DNA of 54,421 nucleotides, from positions 1-54,421 of the forward strand of contig JASKKT010000011.1 in the NCBI GenBank assembly GCA_030154025.1, written 5' to 3'. Position 1 is the first letter of the stretch. Each line of letters starts with the position of its first letter. Below are positions 42,086-52,354 of the stretch, piece after piece. The translations under genes and the position numbers were made by a program. Below the pieces are notes generated by a model. The model ran no database searches. It was not told the DNA's origin and saw only the letters and a program-made list of their open reading frames with translations. The DNA comes from Methanolobus sp. (lineage in GTDB: Archaea; Halobacteriota; Methanosarcinia; Methanosarcinales; Methanosarcinaceae).

Positions 42086-43000
42086 TCAGTCAACGAATAA
42101 TTCGACTCCCATCAGTTCCAGGAAGATTTCTTCCAGCGAAGGCACGATGGTGCGCATCTCGACGATATCCCCGCCTTTGGATGCGACCCACTTGGTGGTA
42201 TTATTGATAACGTTAATGTCATTGGTGATGATAACATAGTCATCGCCCGCCTTCTTCAGTTCTGCAAGATCGTAGTCCTCGACACTGTCCACCCTGAACT
42301 CCAGCCTGTACTGTATCTTCCCGAACTCCTCGCGGATGCGGGCTGCCGTACCAAAGGTGACCATCCTGCCATTCTTCAGTATCAGGATATTGTCGCACAG
42401 GCTTTCTACCTGGTAGAGGTTGTGGGCGCTGAAGATGACAGTCTTGCCTGCTTCCCTGAGGGAACGCACGTAATCCGTGATATAACGTGAGGTCATAGGA
42501 TCGAGGCCTGAGGCAGGCTCATCGAAGATAAGGATATCAGGATCATTGATCAGCGAGCGGGCTATTGCGACCTTGCGTTTCATGCCTTTTGAGAGGTCAC
42601 CTATCTTCTTGCCGCCGGCATTGAGAGAAAGATCGAAGAGCAGATCATTGATCCTCTTCCGGGCTACATCCTTGCCGACGCCATACAGCTCAGCGAAGAA
42701 CATAAGGTAGTCATCAACTTCCATGCCTTCGTACAGGGGTGACTCTTCAGGAAGGAATCCCAGGAAGGATTTGATCCTGACAGCATCCCTGCCAATATCC
42801 AGCCCCTTCATTGTGATGGTACCCCTGCTTGGCCTGACAAGGCCGCTGAGCATCTTCAATGTAGTTGTCTTCCCTGCACCATTGGGACCTACTATACCGA
42901 ATATCTCTCCCTTTCCGATGGAGAAGCTCAGGCTCTCGACCGCAACGAAATCCCCGTACTCTTTCCTGAGTCCTTCCACTGTAATGATCTTCTGTTCCAC
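42086..43000 (-). CDS. ABC transporter ATPase, ABC-2 exporter type
   Basis: The 304-residue protein has Walker A GPNGAGKT (38-45), signature LSKGMKRK, Walker B ILIFDEPASGLDP and a C-terminal extension of about 80 residues typical for drug/Na+-type exporters (CcmA group). It probably pairs with the ABC-2 permeases at 44083 and 45884, which lack their own ATPase. The open frame runs to 43084, but a TATA box centred 25 bases before GTG at 43000 and no Shine-Dalgarno mark a leaderless GTG start, which also fits homolog beginnings. MscS lies upstream on the same strand. Confidence 0.88.
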   Translation of the reverse strand: MEQKIITVEGLRKEYGDFVAVESLSFSIGKGEIFGIVGPNGAGKTTTLKMLSGLVRPSRGTITMKGLDIGRDAVRIKSFLGFLPEESPLYEGMEVDDYLMFFAELYGVGKDVARKRINDLLFDLSLNAGGKKIGDLSKGMKRKVAIARSLINDPDILIFDEPASGLDPMTSRYITDYVRSLREAGKTVIFSAHNLYQVESLCDNILILKNGRMVTFGTAARIREEFGKIQYRLEFRVDSVEDYDLAELKKAGDDYVIITNDINVINNTTKWVASKGGDIVEMRTIVPSLEEIFLELMGVELFVD

Positions 43001-43020
43001 AGAAAGAGAATATACTTCAC

Positions 43021-43029
43021 TATATATAA
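43021..43029 (-). promoter_or_regulatory. TATA box of the ABC ATPase gene
   Basis: The minus strand reads TTATATATA centred 25 bases before the GTG start at 43000. This sets a leaderless start and rules out the longer frame up to 43084, because that start would lie upstream of the promoter. Confidence 0.6.
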
Positions 43030-43065
43030 GCAATGTTATAAAAATAGAAATGCACAAAAATGAAA

Positions 43066-43086
43066 GCACGGTTGCGCGTTGCAACC
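43066..43086 (-). terminator. Hairpin terminator after the MscS gene
   Basis: GGTTGC (43070-43075) and GCAACC (43081-43086) enclose a five-base loop. On the minus strand TTTCATTTTT follows, 34 bases past the MscS stop codon. Confidence 0.55.
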
Positions 43087-43119: not shown

Positions 43120-43950
43120 TTATTGCTGCTTTGCATGTTCCTTGATATACACGTCCATCTGCGGGAACGGAATGCTTATACCTTCCCTGTTGAAAGCATC
43201 GTGGATGCCTCTTGTCAGGTCGTTCTTGACAGGCCAGAAATCAGAGGTGTTTACCCACGCGCGCAGCTGCAGATTTACAGACGAGTCCGCAAGCTCGGTG
43301 GTGATCACTGCGGAGGAGGGTGTTTCGAGCACTTTCGGGTGCCCCTTTATCAGCTCAAGGGCAACATTGACCGCCCTGCCGATATCCGTGCCGTAGCTCA
43401 CGCCAACGTCAACACTTACCCTGCGGGTTGGCATGCGGGTGATGTTTACGATAGGGCTTCCCCACACAAGCTTGTTGGGTATGGTAATGAACTGGTTATC
43501 AGGAGTGAGGATCTCGGTAGCCATGATACCTACGGCATGCACAGTACCCGAGAAGCCATTGATGGTGACAAATTCTCCCTTGTCCATGGGTCTCAGTGAT
43601 GCTATCCACACACCTGCAGCCACATTGTTCAGGGAATCCTGCATACCAAAACCAAGTATCAGTCCTATGATTGCCGAGAGACCGACCACTACGGCACTTA
43701 TATCGATCCCCAGTGCGCTTACAAAGACAAGCAGCACCGCCACATAGAGCAGGGCGCGCATGAACCTTACAAGGAACTCTGCAACAAGCTCCGGAAGCTT
43801 TGTTCTCCTCAGTCCCTTCCGGAAGATCCCGGAAAGGATGCCTGCAACGACAATCCCAAGGACAAGGACAATGAGAGCGAAGATCAGTTTCGAAACGGAC
43901 AGGTCCGTGTAGGGAATAGATTGGGATAAAAGAATGGGAAGATCTACCAT
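43120..43950 (-). CDS. MscS-family mechanosensitive channel
   Basis: The 276-residue protein has three N-terminal membrane helices. The third is the pore-lining type: AVVVGLSAIIGLILGFGMQD, followed by SLNNVAAGVWIASLRPMDKG and the cytoplasmic vestibule with FVTINGFSGTVHAVG. It would release solutes on osmotic downshock, matching the osmolyte-making ablAB genes in this genome. The ATG at 43950 has an AGGAG site. It is divergent from the permease operon with a 132-base shared promoter region. Confidence 0.92.
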   Translation of the reverse strand: MVDLPILLSQSIPYTDLSVSKLIFALIVLVLGIVVAGILSGIFRKGLRRTKLPELVAEFLVRFMRALLYVAVLLVFVSALGIDISAVVVGLSAIIGLILGFGMQDSLNNVAAGVWIASLRPMDKGEFVTINGFSGTVHAVGIMATEILTPDNQFITIPNKLVWGSPIVNITRMPTRRVSVDVGVSYGTDIGRAVNVALELIKGHPKVLETPSSAVITTELADSSVNLQLRAWVNTSDFWPVKNDLTRGIHDAFNREGISIPFPQMDVYIKEHAKQQ

Positions 43951-44082: not shown

Positions 44083-45891
44083 ATGTCCGGATGGTTCACT
44101 ATCGCAAAATGGGAGTTCTTCAGGTCGAAGCTCAAGTTCGATACAAGGTCCGCCGTACTCCTGGCGCTCTCTCTTACACTGGTCATAGCAGCATCCTTTG
44201 CAGCCGTACAGACCCAGATGAGTATGAACCAGAAGATATACACCGCAGCATCCAGCGAACCTACACTTCGCCCCATACTTGAAAGTGACCAGAGGTTCAG
44301 CTACATGCCCTTAACGGTATATGAGGCCACCCAGTTCTACATGTACGGGGCTGATCTTGTCATCATCGGTAATAACGTGTACCTGGGAGACAGTGCCAAG
44401 TCTGCAGCAGCCGGAAGCGCACTTGAGAATACGATCAAAGAGTACCGTGAAGCAGTGCTGACCTCCTACGACGATATCAATAACAGCCATCCGGTATGGG
44501 TCACGGTCCACGACATAGAGAGACCCCAGAACTTCCAGCTACTGAGCGCCCAGGATGCAGCCGGCACCATGAAGGCAGTCCAGGACACCGAGAACAAGGA
44601 CCTGGGAGAAGATTATCCCCGGGGAGAGATCACACAGGAATATCTCAACAGAGGTTCCTCGTTCACACTCCCGGAAGACATCAGCGAGCTGGATGATTAC
44701 AAGGGCAAGGCCTTCTTCCAGAAGCAGACCCTCTCCACACCATCCTTTTTCTCGCCTCCGATACCCTTCACGGCGATCCTTTACGCTTTCCTGTTCATAT
44801 TCCCCATCTACTTCGTCTCGCAGTTCTATTCCACAAGCATCATGGACGAGCGTACCAACAAGAAAGGAGAGCTGATCCTGGCATCACCGCTTCTGAGCAG
44901 GGATGTGGTCATAGGCAAGACACTGCCATACATCATTGTAACTCTCCTGATCCAGGCGGTCATCACCGTGTACATTATGGGATTCCCGGCTGACCTGAGG
45001 GCAGCACAGAGCTCGATACTGATACTTGTGACGATACTCCCCGTCGTGCTCCTGTTCTTCGCACTTTCCTTCTTCGGGGCCATACTCTCAAGGAGCTTCA
45101 AGGAGCTGACCTTCACCAGCGTCTTCCTGTCAGTGGTCATTTCAGGATACCTGTTCTTCCCGGCCATGTTTGCAAATATCCATGCCATCAGCTCCATCTC
45201 ACCCATCACGCTCATCGTCCGCCTTATCGAAGGCGAGACCGTACTGGTGAATACATACCTGTTCTCAACACTGCCGTTCTACTTTGTGGCGCTTTCGGCC
45301 TTTGCTTTTGGCACATACATCTATCGCGAGGAAGACCTTTTCACCCAGAAGGCAATCTCAGAGAAGATAACGGACTGCCTGGAGATATTCCTTTTAAGCT
45401 CATACGGCTCTGTGTTCCTGCTGAGCATTATCTTCATTCCCTTCGTATATATGACCCAGCTAATGCTTATCGTCATGCTGTTCAATCTGCCTGCGCCTCA
45501 TTCGGTCATTGTCATGATAGTGCTCTCCGCCATGGCAGAGGAGCTGGTCAAGTCAGCCGGGATATACACAGTCTTCAAAAGGAAGCTCCAGCCAGTTAAG
45601 CTTAAAAGTGCCCTCAGGCTCGCCGTCCTTTCTGGAGCGGGGTTCTTTGTGGGAGAGAAGGCGGTGGCGGTCCTCACCCTGGCGCCCATAGCAAGCTCTG
45701 CCTTCGGGGCAGTGATGACCATGGGCAACCTCCTGCTCATACCCCTCCTGCTTCATGTTTCCACAGCAGCGGTCAGCTCACTGGTGATGTACAGGTTCGG
45801 CACCAGGAGATACCTGTTCTCGGTGATTGTGGCGACCCTGGTCCACAGCATATACAATCTTTTCATCCTGAGAGGTGTGCTTCTTGGCTGA
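44083..45891 (+). CDS. ABC-2 permease fused to a PrsW-type intramembrane protease
   Basis: The first 420 residues are an ABC-2 export permease: a membrane helix at about 25-45, a long external loop to about 225, then a cluster of helices with the conserved cytoplasmic turn MDERTNKKGELILASPLLSR. The C-terminal 170 residues add a second membrane domain with every motif of PrsW glutamic/metallo intramembrane proteases: EELVK (E486, E487, K490), GFFVGE (E525), H558 in LLHVSTA and H588 in VHSIYN. The protease would face the lipid bilayer beside the permease. It starts a plus-strand operon under a leaderless promoter, and the second permease follows with overlap. Partner ATPase is likely the one at 42086-43000. 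Confidence 0.86.
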   Translation: MSGWFTIAKWEFFRSKLKFDTRSAVLLALSLTLVIAASFAAVQTQMSMNQKIYTAASSEPTLRPILESDQRFSYMPLTVYEATQFYMYGADLVIIGNNVYLGDSAKSAAAGSALENTIKEYREAVLTSYDDINNSHPVWVTVHDIERPQNFQLLSAQDAAGTMKAVQDTENKDLGEDYPRGEITQEYLNRGSSFTLPEDISELDDYKGKAFFQKQTLSTPSFFSPPIPFTAILYAFLFIFPIYFVSQFYSTSIMDERTNKKGELILASPLLSRDVVIGKTLPYIIVTLLIQAVITVYIMGFPADLRAAQSSILILVTILPVVLLFFALSFFGAILSRSFKELTFTSVFLSVVISGYLFFPAMFANIHAISSISPITLIVRLIEGETVLVNTYLFSTLPFYFVALSAFAFGTYIYREEDLFTQKAISEKITDCLEIFLLSSYGSVFLLSIIFIPFVYMTQLMLIVMLFNLPAPHSVIVMIVLSAMAEELVKSAGIYTVFKRKLQPVKLKSALRLAVLSGAGFFVGEKAVAVLTLAPIASSAFGAVMTMGNLLLIPLLLHVSTAAVSSLVMYRFGTRRYLFSVIVATLVHSIYNLFILRGVLLG

Positions 45892-46984
45892 GCGTACAAG
45901 ACCTTACGGAAAAATAAGAAGCATCGCCAGGAAGGAAACAGGTGAACTTATGCGCGAGAAGACGTTCATACTTTCCGTGCTTATCCAGCTGTTCATTGCT
46001 TCCTTCTCGACATTCCTTGTCATCGGGCTTACGTCATTCTACGATCCCACCATCATGGGAGATATAGAGATGCAGGGCATAAGCATTGCAGTTGTGGGAA
46101 CCGAGGACAACGAGCTCTACAGGCTGCTCCGGGAAAGCAAGCTCAACACCCGGCTCTACAGTGACCTGACACCTGCATACGGGGACTTCTACGAACACAA
46201 GGTCGACGCCATAGTTATCGCTCCCCCCGGCCCTCCTGAAGGGGAGGAGATACTGAACGTTGACATATACCTCCCAAGATCGGAGATAAAAGCCACCCTG
46301 ATATCACTCCAGATGAAAGAACCTCTTGAGAAGTTCGAGCAGCATGTCCGGGACATCAGGACCCAGCGCCTGCCGGGATATTCACCCATAGAGGTCAATA
46401 TCAATAAGAGAGGCATAAAGACCTCTTCCACTTATTTCGAATTCATTTATGTGGCCCTGCTTCCTCTGCTGGTGTTCACCCCGGCTTTTATTTCAGGAGG
46501 CCTTGTCATTGACTTCATCACCGAGGAGTTCGAGAGGAAGACGATGGAGCTGCTGATGGCCAGCCCGGCGTCCATGATGGATATAGTCAGCGGCAAAGTG
46601 CTTGTTGCAGTGGCCATAGTGCCCCTCCAGGCCCTTGCATGGATGCTGCTGATGGGTGCAAATATGATAGTCATAAGGAACTTCTTCAGCATACTGATGG
46701 TGGTCACACTGATTGGAGCCATACTTGTCCTGATAAGCAGCATGATATCAATCAGCTTCAGGTACAGGGGAGTTTCCCAGCTGCTTTACTCCATGATACT
46801 GATCTTTCTTTTCATGGTCTCCTACCTGTTCACGAACTCACCGCTCAACCTTGTGACACGGCTGTCAATAGGCAGTATAGGGACAGCGGAGTCCACCCTG
46901 TGGATGGGTATCTATTCACTCGTGGCTCTCGCACTGGGTATCCTGACAGCGGCCACCGTGAAAAGGAAATACGATAACAATTAA
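45884..46984 (+). CDS. ABC-2 transporter permease subunit
   Basis: The protein of about 366 residues has an N-terminal helix (FILSVLIQLFIASFSTFLVI), an external domain to about 190, then five helices with the conserved turn ITEEFERKTMELLMASPASM found in NatB/ABC-2 permeases. A frame opens at GTG 45875, but GAGGTG lies six bases before TTG 45884, so I use that. The gene overlaps the stop of the permease-protease gene by eight bases, so the two permeases probably form a heterodimer made at equal levels. Confidence 0.86.
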   Translation: MAERTRPYGKIRSIARKETGELMREKTFILSVLIQLFIASFSTFLVIGLTSFYDPTIMGDIEMQGISIAVVGTEDNELYRLLRESKLNTRLYSDLTPAYGDFYEHKVDAIVIAPPGPPEGEEILNVDIYLPRSEIKATLISLQMKEPLEKFEQHVRDIRTQRLPGYSPIEVNINKRGIKTSSTYFEFIYVALLPLLVFTPAFISGGLVIDFITEEFERKTMELLMASPASMMDIVSGKVLVAVAIVPLQALAWMLLMGANMIVIRNFFSILMVVTLIGAILVLISSMISISFRYRGVSQLLYSMILIFLFMVSYLFTNSPLNLVTRLSIGSIGTAESTLWMGIYSLVALALGILTAATVKRKYDNN

Positions 46985-47001: not shown

Positions 47002-48843
47002 ATGCACACAATGGCTGTGAGAACGCACATCTTCACGACACTTGCGATCCTGATCCTGACCGCTTTAGCATATCCGGCCAGTGCCTACGATATACAGGAC
47101 GAGGACATCTGGATATTCCAGGGTGCCTACACGCTTGCTGCCGGGGAGAGGGCGGAACTTGAGGGGTTCACGGTAAAAGTACATTCGGTGAACATGGATG
47201 AGCCCGAACCTTCTGCCATGGTCCTGATCTACCGCAACAGGGACTTTAAAGAATCCTTTTTAGTGGATGCATCTGCAAACAGCGAGCAGGTATATGACGA
47301 TGAACTGAAGATCAGGATATCGGGAATAGATTCAGGGGCAGTCTCACTTGAGACTTACAAGCAGAAGTATGAAAGGGTGTGGATCACAAGCGTGCCCAGG
47401 AAATCCATGAAAGCAGGCGACATACTGGAAGACGGCGGTTACCGTGTCAGGGTCAAAGAAGTCGGGGAGAGCGGCGCCCTTGTCAGTGTGGAGGGAAAGA
47501 GTGGTGTCTTTGAGGAAAGCTACCAGTCAGGAGACTACAGGAAGTTCTCAGAAGAGTTCATGATCCGCGTCATCTACATCAACCCTAACACCCGGGAGGT
47601 TTTTATCGAGACCTTCAGACCAGGAGCGCCGGCATTGACCATTGATGTACTGGCCGATAAGCCGGCCTACGACTCGAACGAGAACATATCATACATGCTT
47701 ACCCTTACCAACAGCGGTACCATTCCCTTGCACGGCATCATCCTCAGCACAAGCTCCTCTGCAGGTTTGGTGGAGGAACCACAGCTCCAGCATGCTTCCC
47801 TTGATGCACTGAAGATGAAAAGGTTCACCGTCCCCGTTAAGGCACCTGTGACACCTGTCGTCAGGAACATGCTGATACGGTCACAGGTCACAGGGTACGA
47901 TTACAAAGGTAATGCCTACTCAGGGGAGGCCTCTGTTGAAGTGCAGGTCAGGCCTTACATATCCGTTGAGAAGAAAGTAGAGGCTGTCAGGAAATCCCCA
48001 AAGGATACCTCGATGGGGACTGATGGCCATTTCATAATAACGCTGAAGCTCAGGAACAACGCAGGGTCGAGGGTGGCAGTGAATGTACTGGATGAGCTGC
48101 CGCCAACGATGATCCCTGAGGATATGGAGAGAACGGAATGGGCCGTAGTGCTTGATGCGGGTGCTACAAAAGAGATAGTATATAATGCACAGCCAACTGA
48201 ACCGGGCAGTTTCACCTTCGGCCCGGCAGTCGTCCAATGGAACGACTCAGGAGAGACATACAGTGTGGAATCCGATCCTGCCAGTGAGATCTTCAGGATC
48301 AGAGGCTCGAAGGTAGTCGTGGAGAAGAGAATTGATTCAGCTTACCTTTTTACCGGAGAGATGTCCGGGATATCTGTCACTCTCATCAATGACGGAGACA
48401 GCAGGACCCATGTGAGCCTTAGTGATAGTGTTCCAGATGGTATTTCCCTCCTGTCCGGCCAGCCCGGCTGGGAAGGGGACCTCGAAGCAGGTGCATCCAG
48501 GGAGATCAGCTATATTGTAAAGGCAGAAGATGCAGGAAGCATCAGACTGCCTGCTGCAGTGGCAGAGTGCACAGATGAAGAAGGAAAGAAGTACAGTTCT
48601 GCTTCCGAGGCCTTACTGATCTATATCGATTACGGACTACCCACTGACAACACACAGACAGGCAGCACCGCAGGTACGGAACATACAGATGGGAACACAG
48701 GCCGTATTCCTGATCAGGGGAACGCCGAACTGACGCGCACCAAAGCCGCCGGATTCCTGCTGTCCGCTTTCATCACCCTGTTATCACTGCTTGCGATCAT
48801 ACCGGGTATTATGTACCTGGTCATAAGAGGAGGATTTAAATGA
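47002..48843 (+). CDS. Secreted repeat protein with C-terminal membrane anchor
   Basis: The 613-residue protein has a signal peptide (about 1-27, ending YPASAY). A beta-rich N-terminal half (about 28-215) follows, then three CARDB/DUF11-like immunoglobulin-type modules (about 216-320, 325-445 and 446-560), each with a pattern such as ISYMLTLTNSGTIPLHGIIL. An Asn/Thr/Gly-rich linker and a C-terminal helix (about 588-609) ending in Arg-Gly-Gly come last. It is a cell-surface protein resembling BatD or S-layer-linked proteins. Its position after the permeases suggests it is part of the same membrane module. An in-frame ATG at 47011 is an alternative start. Confidence 0.8.
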   Translation: MHTMAVRTHIFTTLAILILTALAYPASAYDIQDEDIWIFQGAYTLAAGERAELEGFTVKVHSVNMDEPEPSAMVLIYRNRDFKESFLVDASANSEQVYDDELKIRISGIDSGAVSLETYKQKYERVWITSVPRKSMKAGDILEDGGYRVRVKEVGESGALVSVEGKSGVFEESYQSGDYRKFSEEFMIRVIYINPNTREVFIETFRPGAPALTIDVLADKPAYDSNENISYMLTLTNSGTIPLHGIILSTSSSAGLVEEPQLQHASLDALKMKRFTVPVKAPVTPVVRNMLIRSQVTGYDYKGNAYSGEASVEVQVRPYISVEKKVEAVRKSPKDTSMGTDGHFIITLKLRNNAGSRVAVNVLDELPPTMIPEDMERTEWAVVLDAGATKEIVYNAQPTEPGSFTFGPAVVQWNDSGETYSVESDPASEIFRIRGSKVVVEKRIDSAYLFTGEMSGISVTLINDGDSRTHVSLSDSVPDGISLLSGQPGWEGDLEAGASREISYIVKAEDAGSIRLPAAVAECTDEEGKKYSSASEALLIYIDYGLPTDNTQTGSTAGTEHTDGNTGRIPDQGNAELTRTKAAGFLLSAFITLLSLLAIIPGIMYLVIRGGFK

Positions 48844-48866: not shown

Positions 48867-49283
48867 ATGGAGATCCTGGCTTTCATCGGTTGCATGATGT
48901 TGTTTGTCACTTTTGCGCTGACAGTGCTTTTCGTACTCATCAGGATATCCTCCAGGCTGGCAATGCTTGTCCTGGCAGCAGTACCCCTGCTTGCAGTGAT
49001 CCTGATGCCCGGGGCATCTGTGGCTTTTCTCTCGTACGAGCATTTCCGTTTTGCCGAAGGACTGGTACCGGTCAACAATTTCCATATACTGCTTACACTA
49101 TGGTCCACACTGATAGCTATCATCCTCTACACGGAATTCCTTACATGGTACCTTACCACAGGGAAGAGAAGGAAAGCACAGGGCCAGGAGTCGGGCAGGC
49201 CTGCAGAGTTTGCTAAGAGCCTTGATAGTATCAGCCTCAGGGTAAAGGACGCACTGCTGAAACGCGGTCCATCAGGCAAATGA
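48867..49283 (+). CDS. Small membrane protein, unknown function
   Basis: I do not recognise this 138-residue protein. It has three hydrophobic helices (about 4-27, 31-53 and 73-97), then a basic cytoplasmic tail with KRRKAQGQESGRP and KDALLKRGPSGK. GGAGGATC precedes the ATG at 48867. It begins 23 bases after the secreted repeat protein and probably belongs to the same operon. Confidence 0.75.
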   Translation: MEILAFIGCMMLFVTFALTVLFVLIRISSRLAMLVLAAVPLLAVILMPGASVAFLSYEHFRFAEGLVPVNNFHILLTLWSTLIAIILYTEFLTWYLTTGKRRKAQGQESGRPAEFAKSLDSISLRVKDALLKRGPSGK

Positions 49284-50118: not shown

Positions 50119-51888
50119 CTACTCTATGTTGTGGTAGTAGTACTCTCCGCTGGCTTTCTGCTCCCTGTCAAGCCTTGAGTCAGGCTTGTTGACCCTCGGG
50201 CGGGAGGTATCCTCGTCACGCCTGAAAGTGATATGGAGATTGGCCAGGAACTTGTTCATGCCATCCTGCATGCTGGAAGGCTGGTGTGCCTTACCATAGA
50301 CCGCAGGCTCACCTTCAAAGACTATGAGGCGTTCACTTAGCATGTCTATCATGTAGATATCGTGGTCCACCACCATGGCTGTCTTGCCGCTGTTCTCGGC
50401 AAATCTCTTGATGACCTTGGTGGTCATGGAACGCTGCTCCACATCCAGGTGGGCGCTAGGCTCGTCAAGGATGTACATATCCGCATCCCTGCACAGGCAG
50501 GCTGCTATGGCAACCCTCTGGAGCTCTCCTCCACTGAGATCTGTGAGGTCGCGCTCATATAATGGCTCAAGGTTCAGCGGCTTGGCTACCTCCGACTGGA
50601 AGTAGCTTGTATCGAACTTGCGGGATATGCCCCGCAGGAAATACTGCACAGGCATCGCAACATCAGGCTTGATGTACTGCGGCTTGTAGGAGATGGTGAT
50701 GCTCAGGTCAAGCTTACCCTCGTCAGGATCGATCTCCCCGGCCAGGATCTTCACGAAAGTGGACTTACCGATACCGTTGGGTCCGACGATCCCTAGCACT
50801 TCGCCCTGCTTAAGGGAGCCATTTTCGCTCTCAAGGCCGAAGCCATTACCGTATTTCTTGGAAAAGCCATCGTAATCCACAAGTGTCTCGATGTCAGTCT
50901 CCACACGAGGGGGATGTACCTCGAACTTAATGGCCTCGGGCCTGATACGCACGTTCTCCTCCGGCAGGTAACCCTTAAGATACTGGTTGATCCCGATACG
51001 CACACCCTTGGGGTAAGTGATGACACCATAGGCGCCCGGCTGGCCGTATGCCACATGCACCACATCCGCCAGCATATCAAGGATGGCCAGGTCATGCTCC
51101 ACCACTAACACTGCTTTATCTTTGGATATCTCCTGGATGAGCTGGGCCGAATTGATACGCTGGTAGATGTCAAGGTAGGGACTTATCTCGTCAAAGAAAT
51201 AGAAATCTGCATCCCTTGCAGCACAGGCCGCGATAGCGACCCTCTGGAGCTCGCCGCCACTGAGCTCGGTGATATTCCTGTCGATAACAGGAGTGAGACC
51301 AAGCCTCTCAATAAGCTCGCTGAGCACGCCCCGCTCATCGGTCTTGTCAAGCAGCTCGCTGGTCTTGCCTTTGAAGGCCTTGGGTATCATATCCACATAC
51401 TGCGGCTTCTGGGACACCTTGATATTACCGTCGATGACCTCACTGAAATAATCATACAGGGCTGTGCCTGAATAATGCTGCAGCACTTTTTCCCAGTTCC
51501 CTGTCCCTTCACCGAAATTAGGGACAAGGGTTCCGGAGAGTATCTGCACGGCGGTACTTTTACCGATACCGTTGGGTCCAAGGATACCTGTGACCCTGCC
51601 CGCCTGAGGGACAGGAAGGCCGTAGAGCGCAAAGGCGTTAGGCCCGTACCTGTGCGTGGGTGCAGTGAGCTCTTCCGGCAGGCCTATGATCATTATAGCG
51701 TCAAAAGGGCACCTGTTGATGCAGATACCGCATCCCACGCAGAGCTCTTCGGATATGAGGGGTTTTCCGCCACCCTCCGGGAAAACGATGGTCTCGTCCC
51801 CTGTCCTCACCCTGGGACAATACTTTTCACATTCATGGCTGCAGCGCCTTGGCTGGCACCTGTCCTTGTTCAATATGGCTATTCGCAT
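50119..51888 (-). CDS. ABCE1 (RNase L inhibitor homolog), ribosome recycling ATPase
   Basis: ABCE1 splits the ribosome after termination in archaea and eukaryotes. The 589-residue protein has the N-terminal double Fe-S domain (CQPRRCSHECEKYCP and CVGCGICINRCP), two ABC ATPase halves with Walker A GPNGIGKST in each, and the signature LSGGELQR twice. The ATG at 51888 follows a GGGATCTC sequence. It sits 46 bases after the EMC6-like gene on the same strand. Confidence 0.97.
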   Translation of the reverse strand: MRIAILNKDRCQPRRCSHECEKYCPRVRTGDETIVFPEGGGKPLISEELCVGCGICINRCPFDAIMIIGLPEELTAPTHRYGPNAFALYGLPVPQAGRVTGILGPNGIGKSTAVQILSGTLVPNFGEGTGNWEKVLQHYSGTALYDYFSEVIDGNIKVSQKPQYVDMIPKAFKGKTSELLDKTDERGVLSELIERLGLTPVIDRNITELSGGELQRVAIAACAARDADFYFFDEISPYLDIYQRINSAQLIQEISKDKAVLVVEHDLAILDMLADVVHVAYGQPGAYGVITYPKGVRIGINQYLKGYLPEENVRIRPEAIKFEVHPPRVETDIETLVDYDGFSKKYGNGFGLESENGSLKQGEVLGIVGPNGIGKSTFVKILAGEIDPDEGKLDLSITISYKPQYIKPDVAMPVQYFLRGISRKFDTSYFQSEVAKPLNLEPLYERDLTDLSGGELQRVAIAACLCRDADMYILDEPSAHLDVEQRSMTTKVIKRFAENSGKTAMVVDHDIYMIDMLSERLIVFEGEPAVYGKAHQPSSMQDGMNKFLANLHITFRRDEDTSRPRVNKPDSRLDREQKASGEYYYHNIE

Positions 51889-51934
51889 GTGAGATCCCTG
51901 ACTGAAATAAGATGCATGTTCAAAAAAGAGAAGG

Positions 51935-52354
51935 TCAATTCAAGAGCAGAGTCCATGTCACAAGACAGAAGTCCACTACCAGGAACTCAACATAGAACCA
52001 GTCCTTGAAACCAAATTCCTTCGTGTTGATCCTGATGAGCGGGAAGATCAGCCTTAATGCGTAGTATGCAAGCGCAATAACGATAACGATCACAGCATAC
52101 CATCTTACCTCATCACCGACACCGAACTGGCTGTAGGAAAGTATACCGGCTATGACACCGATCACAGATGCAACTGCTGTCTTTATTATACCCTCTATGT
52201 GTGCCTGTTTCCTCTCTTCCGGAGTCTTTACCTTATATGCAGGCTTCGGAGCAGCAACGGTTACATCTGCCTGCCCCGCTTCCTTTACGGTGACCGCTTC
52301 CCCTGAGGGAGCAGATGGAGCACGCGCTTGTTTTCTCTTGGACGATTTTGGCAA
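51935..52354 (-). CDS. EMC6-like archaeal membrane protein
   Basis: The 139-residue protein has a basic, Ala/Pro-rich N-terminus (about 1-55), then three membrane helices. The final helix reads FKDWFYVEFLVVDFCLVTWT, the hallmark of archaeal relatives of ER membrane complex subunit 6, an insertase cofactor. It starts at TTG 52354 behind a GGAGATTG site. Linked expression with ABCE1 suggests a role near the ribosome during membrane protein biogenesis. The family match is from pattern recognition, so function is inferred. Confidence 0.72.
   Translation of the reverse strand: MPKSSKRKQARAPSAPSGEAVTVKEAGQADVTVAAPKPAYKVKTPEERKQAHIEGIIKTAVASVIGVIAGILSYSQFGVGDEVRWYAVIVIVIALAYYALRLIFPLIRINTKEFGFKDWFYVEFLVVDFCLVTWTLLLN

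Follow-up and report, generated by a model that had tools for sequence, protein, structure and literature searches.

The closest described arrangement to the locus analyzed here is an NCBIfam family, NF041647 (ABC permease subunit/CPBP protease), in which an ABC-2-type permease and a protease of the same superfamily as that of the present fusion are likewise carried on one chain. The statement in the initial annotation of this locus that fusions of ABC permeases to CPBP-type proteases are known is borne out by this catalogued family. The PrsW proteases (PF13367, M82) have been described in Bacillus subtilis and as stand-alone proteins in archaea. In Bacillota, functional coupling has been described between an ABC transporter and an intramembrane protease by which membrane peptides are processed, for EcsAB with RasP and for Eep with EcsAB/PptAB. 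In ecs mutants, intramembrane proteolysis by RasP is impaired, and a role in clearing the membrane of peptides has been proposed for Ecs (PMC2996298). Production and export of linear peptides cut out of the leaders of lipoproteins require Eep as well as EcsAB (PMC7157817). Fusions of PrsW to toxins occur in polymorphic toxin systems and have been proposed to cut a substrate and conduct it through the membrane (PMC3482391).

Results

Architecture of the fusion protein

The features of the locus are listed in Table 1, with positions counted in the window, which is the whole 54,421-nucleotide stretch of Methanolobus sp. DNA that was analyzed. The fusion ORF has an ATG start and no internal stop codon. 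Its ABC-2 permease region runs from residue 1 to about residue 420 and is followed by a compact PrsW-type domain at approximately residues 425 to 602. Matches to PF12679 (9e-08) and PF12698 (1.1e-07) were detected in the N-terminal two-thirds of the protein, each above the Pfam cut-off. The layout of the permease part is TM1, an extracytoplasmic domain of about 185 aa whose length varies between homologues, and TM2 to TM6. The PrsW-type domain contains EELVK (486 to 490), E525-K526, H558, H588 and N592. The possibility of a frame or fusion artefact was ruled out, as the full-length frame was open in nearly all of the orthologues examined. The fusion frame was split into two ORFs on L075, L097 and L098, which are short metagenomic contigs; either decay or a sequencing error may account for this.

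Table 1. Features of the fusion locus and their positions in the window
Feature	Position	Strand	Size or evidence
ABC ATPase, probable partner of both permeases	42086..43084	-	PF00005 2.3e-28
MscS-type channel, between ATPase and fusion	43120..43950	-	
ABC-2 permease/PrsW-type protease fusion	44083..45891	+	602 aa
ABC-2 permease part (residues 1-423)	44083..45351	+	PF12679/PF12698; modelled helices
PrsW-type domain (residues 424-602)	45352..45888	+	alignment, PrsW profile match, model pLDDT 90.7
PERM2, second bare ABC-2 permease	45875..46984	+	PF12698 3.7e-14
DUF11/BatD-like surface protein, lineage-specific extra operon gene	47002..48843	+	
138-aa membrane protein, lineage-specific extra operon gene	48867..49283	+	

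Structure models were obtained with AlphaFold2. The full chain, modelled with 25 orthologues, had a mean pLDDT of 68, and the region from 129 to 227 was unreliable; the model of the extracytoplasmic domain was poor. The domain alone, modelled with 43 sequences, had a pLDDT of 90.7 and a pTM of 0.86 and comprised five helical stretches of TM length. Positive charges in the loop between helices Tb and Tc (496 to 508) and in that after the sixth permease helix suggest a cytoplasmic location for both. Foldseek detected no significant match for the full-chain model, with ABC-2 proteins, NosY and Wzm among them, appearing at low scores, and no significant match for the domain model, whose list was headed by APH-1 of gamma-secretase (E=0.94, TM 0.43) with another APH-1 match at E=1.6. 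APH-1 is a member of the same superfamily as PrsW (PMC4602095), and this match to a modelled fold is no more than a hint. Sequence searches of the PDB with the single sequence, the full profile or the domain profile yielded nothing useful.

Conservation of the predicted active site

Residue conservation was determined for 101 distinct sequences, comprising the query and 100 homologues with identities down to about 23 to 27%. Residues E486, E487, K490, E525, K526, H558 and H588 were identical in 101/101. Full invariance was confined to 8 columns out of the 179 in the C-terminal region, among them those of all six residues named in the initial annotation (E486, E487, K490, E525, H558 and H588). 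This result is beyond chance by a hypergeometric calculation (P=7e-10), a value that speaks of columns and not of independent events, the sequences being related. The positions given for these residues were correct, and the claim that the active-site residues have been retained was confirmed. The surroundings of motif 2 (GxGFxxxE) were less strictly conserved, with G518 and F522 each present in 86/101 sequences, and in the HxxxD/N motif of the last core helix the invariant H588 was accompanied by N592 in 100/101. The motifs were also retained in four additional copies, read directly, from the most divergent group (about 520 to 550 aa). Between motifs 1 and 2, the 10 stand-alone archaeal PrsW proteins that were compared have a DG pair, with an invariant G and an almost invariant D, and this pair was absent from the fusions. 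At the position of K526, which directly follows the motif-2 glutamate, the stand-alone archaeal PrsW proteins that were read have other residues, N, S and T among them. The invariant lysine may be a signature of the fused subfamily.

Assignment of the C-terminal domain to PrsW

The window copy had no match to PF13367 at E<=10, and no match to this model was detected in the rest of the window genome. Orthologues that could be aligned to the window protein over its full length did match PF13367, some over the Pfam cut-off of 23.5 bits; fusion frames of about 584 to 619 aa had scores of, for example, 32.6 bits and up to 36.6 bits. Matches at E<=0.1 were observed for 16 of 43 diverse fusion domains, and PF02517 (CPBP) was absent from the families matched by these 43 domains. 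The lack of a PrsW hit, which the initial annotation had named, together with a predicted fold without the clustered glutamates and histidines, as counting against its reading, was literally what was found for the window copy but not for its orthologues; as to the fold, the model of the domain was a confident one (pLDDT 90.7).

A profile of the 43 fusion domains was compared by hhalign with a profile of 10 stand-alone archaeal PrsW proteins. The match was at 96.7% (E=4.6e-10), and the two profiles were in register at the EExxK, E, H and H-N motifs. Comparison of the 43-domain profile with CPBP proteins of the same archaeal group gave 1.7%, and a CPBP identity was rejected on this result; canonical PrsW and CPBP were also unmatched at the same profile depth, and the test hence separates the families and is silent on superfamily ties. 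An extra active-site histidine on the penultimate helix is present in PrsW and absent from type II CAAX proteases (PMC4602095), and H558, invariant in the fusions, is the counterpart of this histidine. The first motif was EExxK throughout the fusions and not the EExxxR of CPBP/Abi proteins. Together, the Pfam matches of the orthologues, the profile comparison and the invariant H558 support assignment of the C-terminal domain as PrsW-type rather than CPBP-type. The central proposal of the initial annotation, that an ABC-2 permease and a PrsW-type domain share one ORF, was upheld by the Pfam permease matches and the PrsW profile match. Its description of the PrsW part as complete is fair as regards the motifs, although the domain is of a compact form, with five TM helices in the model, and lacks the DG of the stand-alone archaeal PrsW proteins sampled.

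Distribution and inheritance of the fusion

A match to the fusion was detected in 146 of 295 genomes of the Halobacteriota, representing 61/107 genera, and among the matches listed, most cover both domains. The fusion was present in all 26 of the other Methanolobus genomes searched. Carriers included Methanolobus, Methanomethylovorans, Methanosalsum, ANME-2c, Methanoperedens, Syntrophoarchaeum, a GoM-Arc1 archaeon and the haloarchaea Halorutilus salinus and Haladaptatus salinisoli. Several genera of the same family had no fusion, and some of these have a stand-alone PrsW instead. The suggestion that a PrsW-type fusion might be new in a methanogen was too narrow, as the fusion spans the Halobacteriota, including ANME archaea and haloarchaea, and is not a methanogen oddity.

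Distances between permease parts and between protease parts were closely correlated (r=0.97, slope 1.0), in agreement with a single early fusion inherited as a unit and as expected if this had occurred. No split transporter beside a stand-alone PrsW was observed near 26 PF13367 loci, each with a flank of about 1.5 kb.

Gene neighbourhood

The genes surrounding the fusion were compared across 89 loci. PERM2 adjoined the fusion in the same direction in 87/89 loci, and an orthologue of the ATPase was located near the fusion in 74/89 (65 divergent and 9 co-directional), several of the loci without an ATPase being cut by contig ends. In the window, the stop codon of the fusion falls within the start region of PERM2. 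In haloarchaea, the order was ATPase, fusion and PERM2, mostly with overlaps of a few bases, forming one apparent operon. Both a permease domain over the Pfam cut-off and a nearby gene for a cognate ATPase, as looked for in an ABC-2 exporter, were present. PERM2 and the permease part of the fusion are remote relatives, with 28% identity over 160 aa, and for this reason the transporter is probably a heterodimer of the fusion and PERM2. PERM2 also matched NF041647, with 49.9 bits over the N-terminal half alone against a curated cut-off of 435 bits. As read from sequence, the gene set is that of a heteromeric ABC-2 transporter, with a predicted ATPase, a permease fused to a PrsW-type domain, and a bare permease.

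The MscS gene at this locus was restricted to Methanolobus and its nearest relatives, and in most other loci the ATPase and fusion genes were directly divergent; the channel is probably outside the core module. In Methanolobus and some relatives, Methanomethylovorans among them, PERM2 is followed by the genes for the DUF11/BatD-like protein and the 138-aa membrane protein, which lie outside the core and whose products are possible lineage-specific substrates or partners. No substrate gene that accompanies the three core genes from taxon to taxon was detected in the 89 loci. Elsewhere in the window (50119-52354), a gene for an ABCE1/RLI-like ribosome-recycling ATPase and an archaeal EMC6-like gene are neighbors on opposite strands.

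Discussion

We propose that the module is a heteromeric exporter with a built-in protease, which would cut a membrane-embedded substrate whose product would be cleared by the permease pair; the probability of this reading seems to us slightly short of even. In the proposed mechanism, the PrsW-type domain would be an active intramembrane protease and would cut the substrate of the transporter, either a membrane-embedded peptide or a remnant of a membrane protein. The ATP-driven permease pair would then extract the product from the membrane and, in the direction that we infer, export it. Such a fusion would hard-wire a coupling between ABC exporter and intramembrane protease for which bacteria use separate proteins. 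About one-half of the genomes sampled from the phylum carry such a fusion with its cutting site intact, and pumping and cutting are hence probably coupled in a single task. The earlier suggestion that a substrate could be processed during its export is plausible, and its likelihood is raised by the conserved ABC module.

Several results are consistent with this cutting and clearing of a substrate, namely, the invariance of the predicted active-site residues, the PrsW profile match, the co-divergence of the two parts (r=0.97) and the conserved transporter partners, together with the lack of any other PF13367 match in the window genome and the bacterial precedents of Ecs and Eep. Against it stand the absence of a conserved substrate gene and the fact that APH-1 alone gave sensible, though weak, fold matches. 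An extension of this reading, in which the module is an anciently fused and widespread machine that gives the Halobacteriota a dedicated route, built as one piece, to clear away remnants of membrane proteins or to produce linear peptides for secretion, is more speculative and in our view doubtful.

The invariant active-site residues also fit a reading in which the ABC part senses substrate flux or ATP-driven movement and gates the PrsW-type domain, which would then cut a membrane-anchored regulator. PrsW is known to make the site-1 cut in an anti-sigma factor (PMC4602095), and the arrangement could be likened to the initiation of RsiW degradation by PrsW of B. subtilis, with the variable-length extracytoplasmic domain of the permease part as a further point in favor. 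No regulator or membrane-anchored transcription factor was conserved beside the module in the 89 loci. To our knowledge, archaea lack sigma/anti-sigma pairs of the PrsW/RsiW kind, which also argues against this explanation, and we consider it unlikely, although it retains appreciable weight.

A non-catalytic role for the PrsW-type domain, as a scaffold that aligns or stabilizes the permease pair in the manner of APH-1 in gamma-secretase, was judged to be unlikely as well. No proteolytic activity of APH-1 itself is known. Its place in the superfamily of PrsW (PMC4602095) and at the top of the non-significant fold matches fits such a role. Retention of the domain in the full-length copies examined would also be expected of a structural part. 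Catalysis fits better with the invariance of the EExxK, E, H and H residues in a domain that otherwise drifts to about 27% identity.

Streptolysin-type operons carry a gene for a CAAX-family protease alongside an ABC ATPase and permeases, and this is the same functional parts list as that of the present module. A bacteriocin-like system of this type, for maturation and export of a peptide or for self-immunity, may also be invoked from a weak match of PERM2 to NCBIfam SagH (17.9 bits, far under the cut-off) and from its below-cut-off match to the permease/CPBP family. The presence of the fusion in every Methanolobus genome searched and its spread through the phylum argue against this explanation, as does the lack of conserved precursor-peptide or modification genes among the nearby ORFs of at least 80 aa, and we regard it as improbable. 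Misreading of a CPBP/Abi-type fusion as PrsW is extremely improbable, since the shared EE and HxxxN/D elements (PMC4602095) and the precedent of NF041647 are outweighed by the EExxK motif, the invariant extra histidine absent from CAAX proteases, the hhalign comparison and the Pfam matches to PF13367 with none to PF02517.

No description of an ABC-2/PrsW fusion was found in the literature, in a search that covered few subscription papers. The one RefSeq name inspected, that of the Haladaptatus orthologue, was just "ABC transporter permease subunit." With matches in 61/107 sampled genera of a phylum that includes methanogens, ANME archaea and haloarchaea, and with this one orthologue labelled as a permease alone, a protease activity may go unnoticed. 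If the domain is active, a role for PrsW would be added beyond cleavage of anti-sigma factors, and the suspected link between exporter and intramembrane proteolysis would be directly testable, as a single polypeptide can be mutated domain by domain.

Fusion of an ABC permease to an intramembrane protease is already known in its CPBP version, and the PrsW version is a variant thereof. The two differ in the protease, which is CPBP in NF041647 and PrsW-type in the window fusion, and the latter had no match to NF041647 at E<=1. With PrsW of B. subtilis and the stand-alone archaeal proteins, the fusion has in common the EExxK motif, the glutamate of the next helix, the histidine of the penultimate helix and the HxxxN/D of the last helix. 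It is unlike stand-alone PrsW in lying behind an ABC-2 permease, in its compact five-helix form, in the invariant lysine after the glutamate and in having no DG, and the window copy has diverged too far to be matched by the PF13367 model. In the EcsAB/RasP and Eep systems, the transporter and protease are separate proteins and the protease is of the S2P type, not homologous to that of the fusion, so that the likeness is one of analogy only. In the PrsW-toxin fusions, a PrsW domain is joined to another function, as it is here, but it is located N-terminal to the toxin, whereas the PrsW-type domain of the window fusion is C-terminal to the permease.
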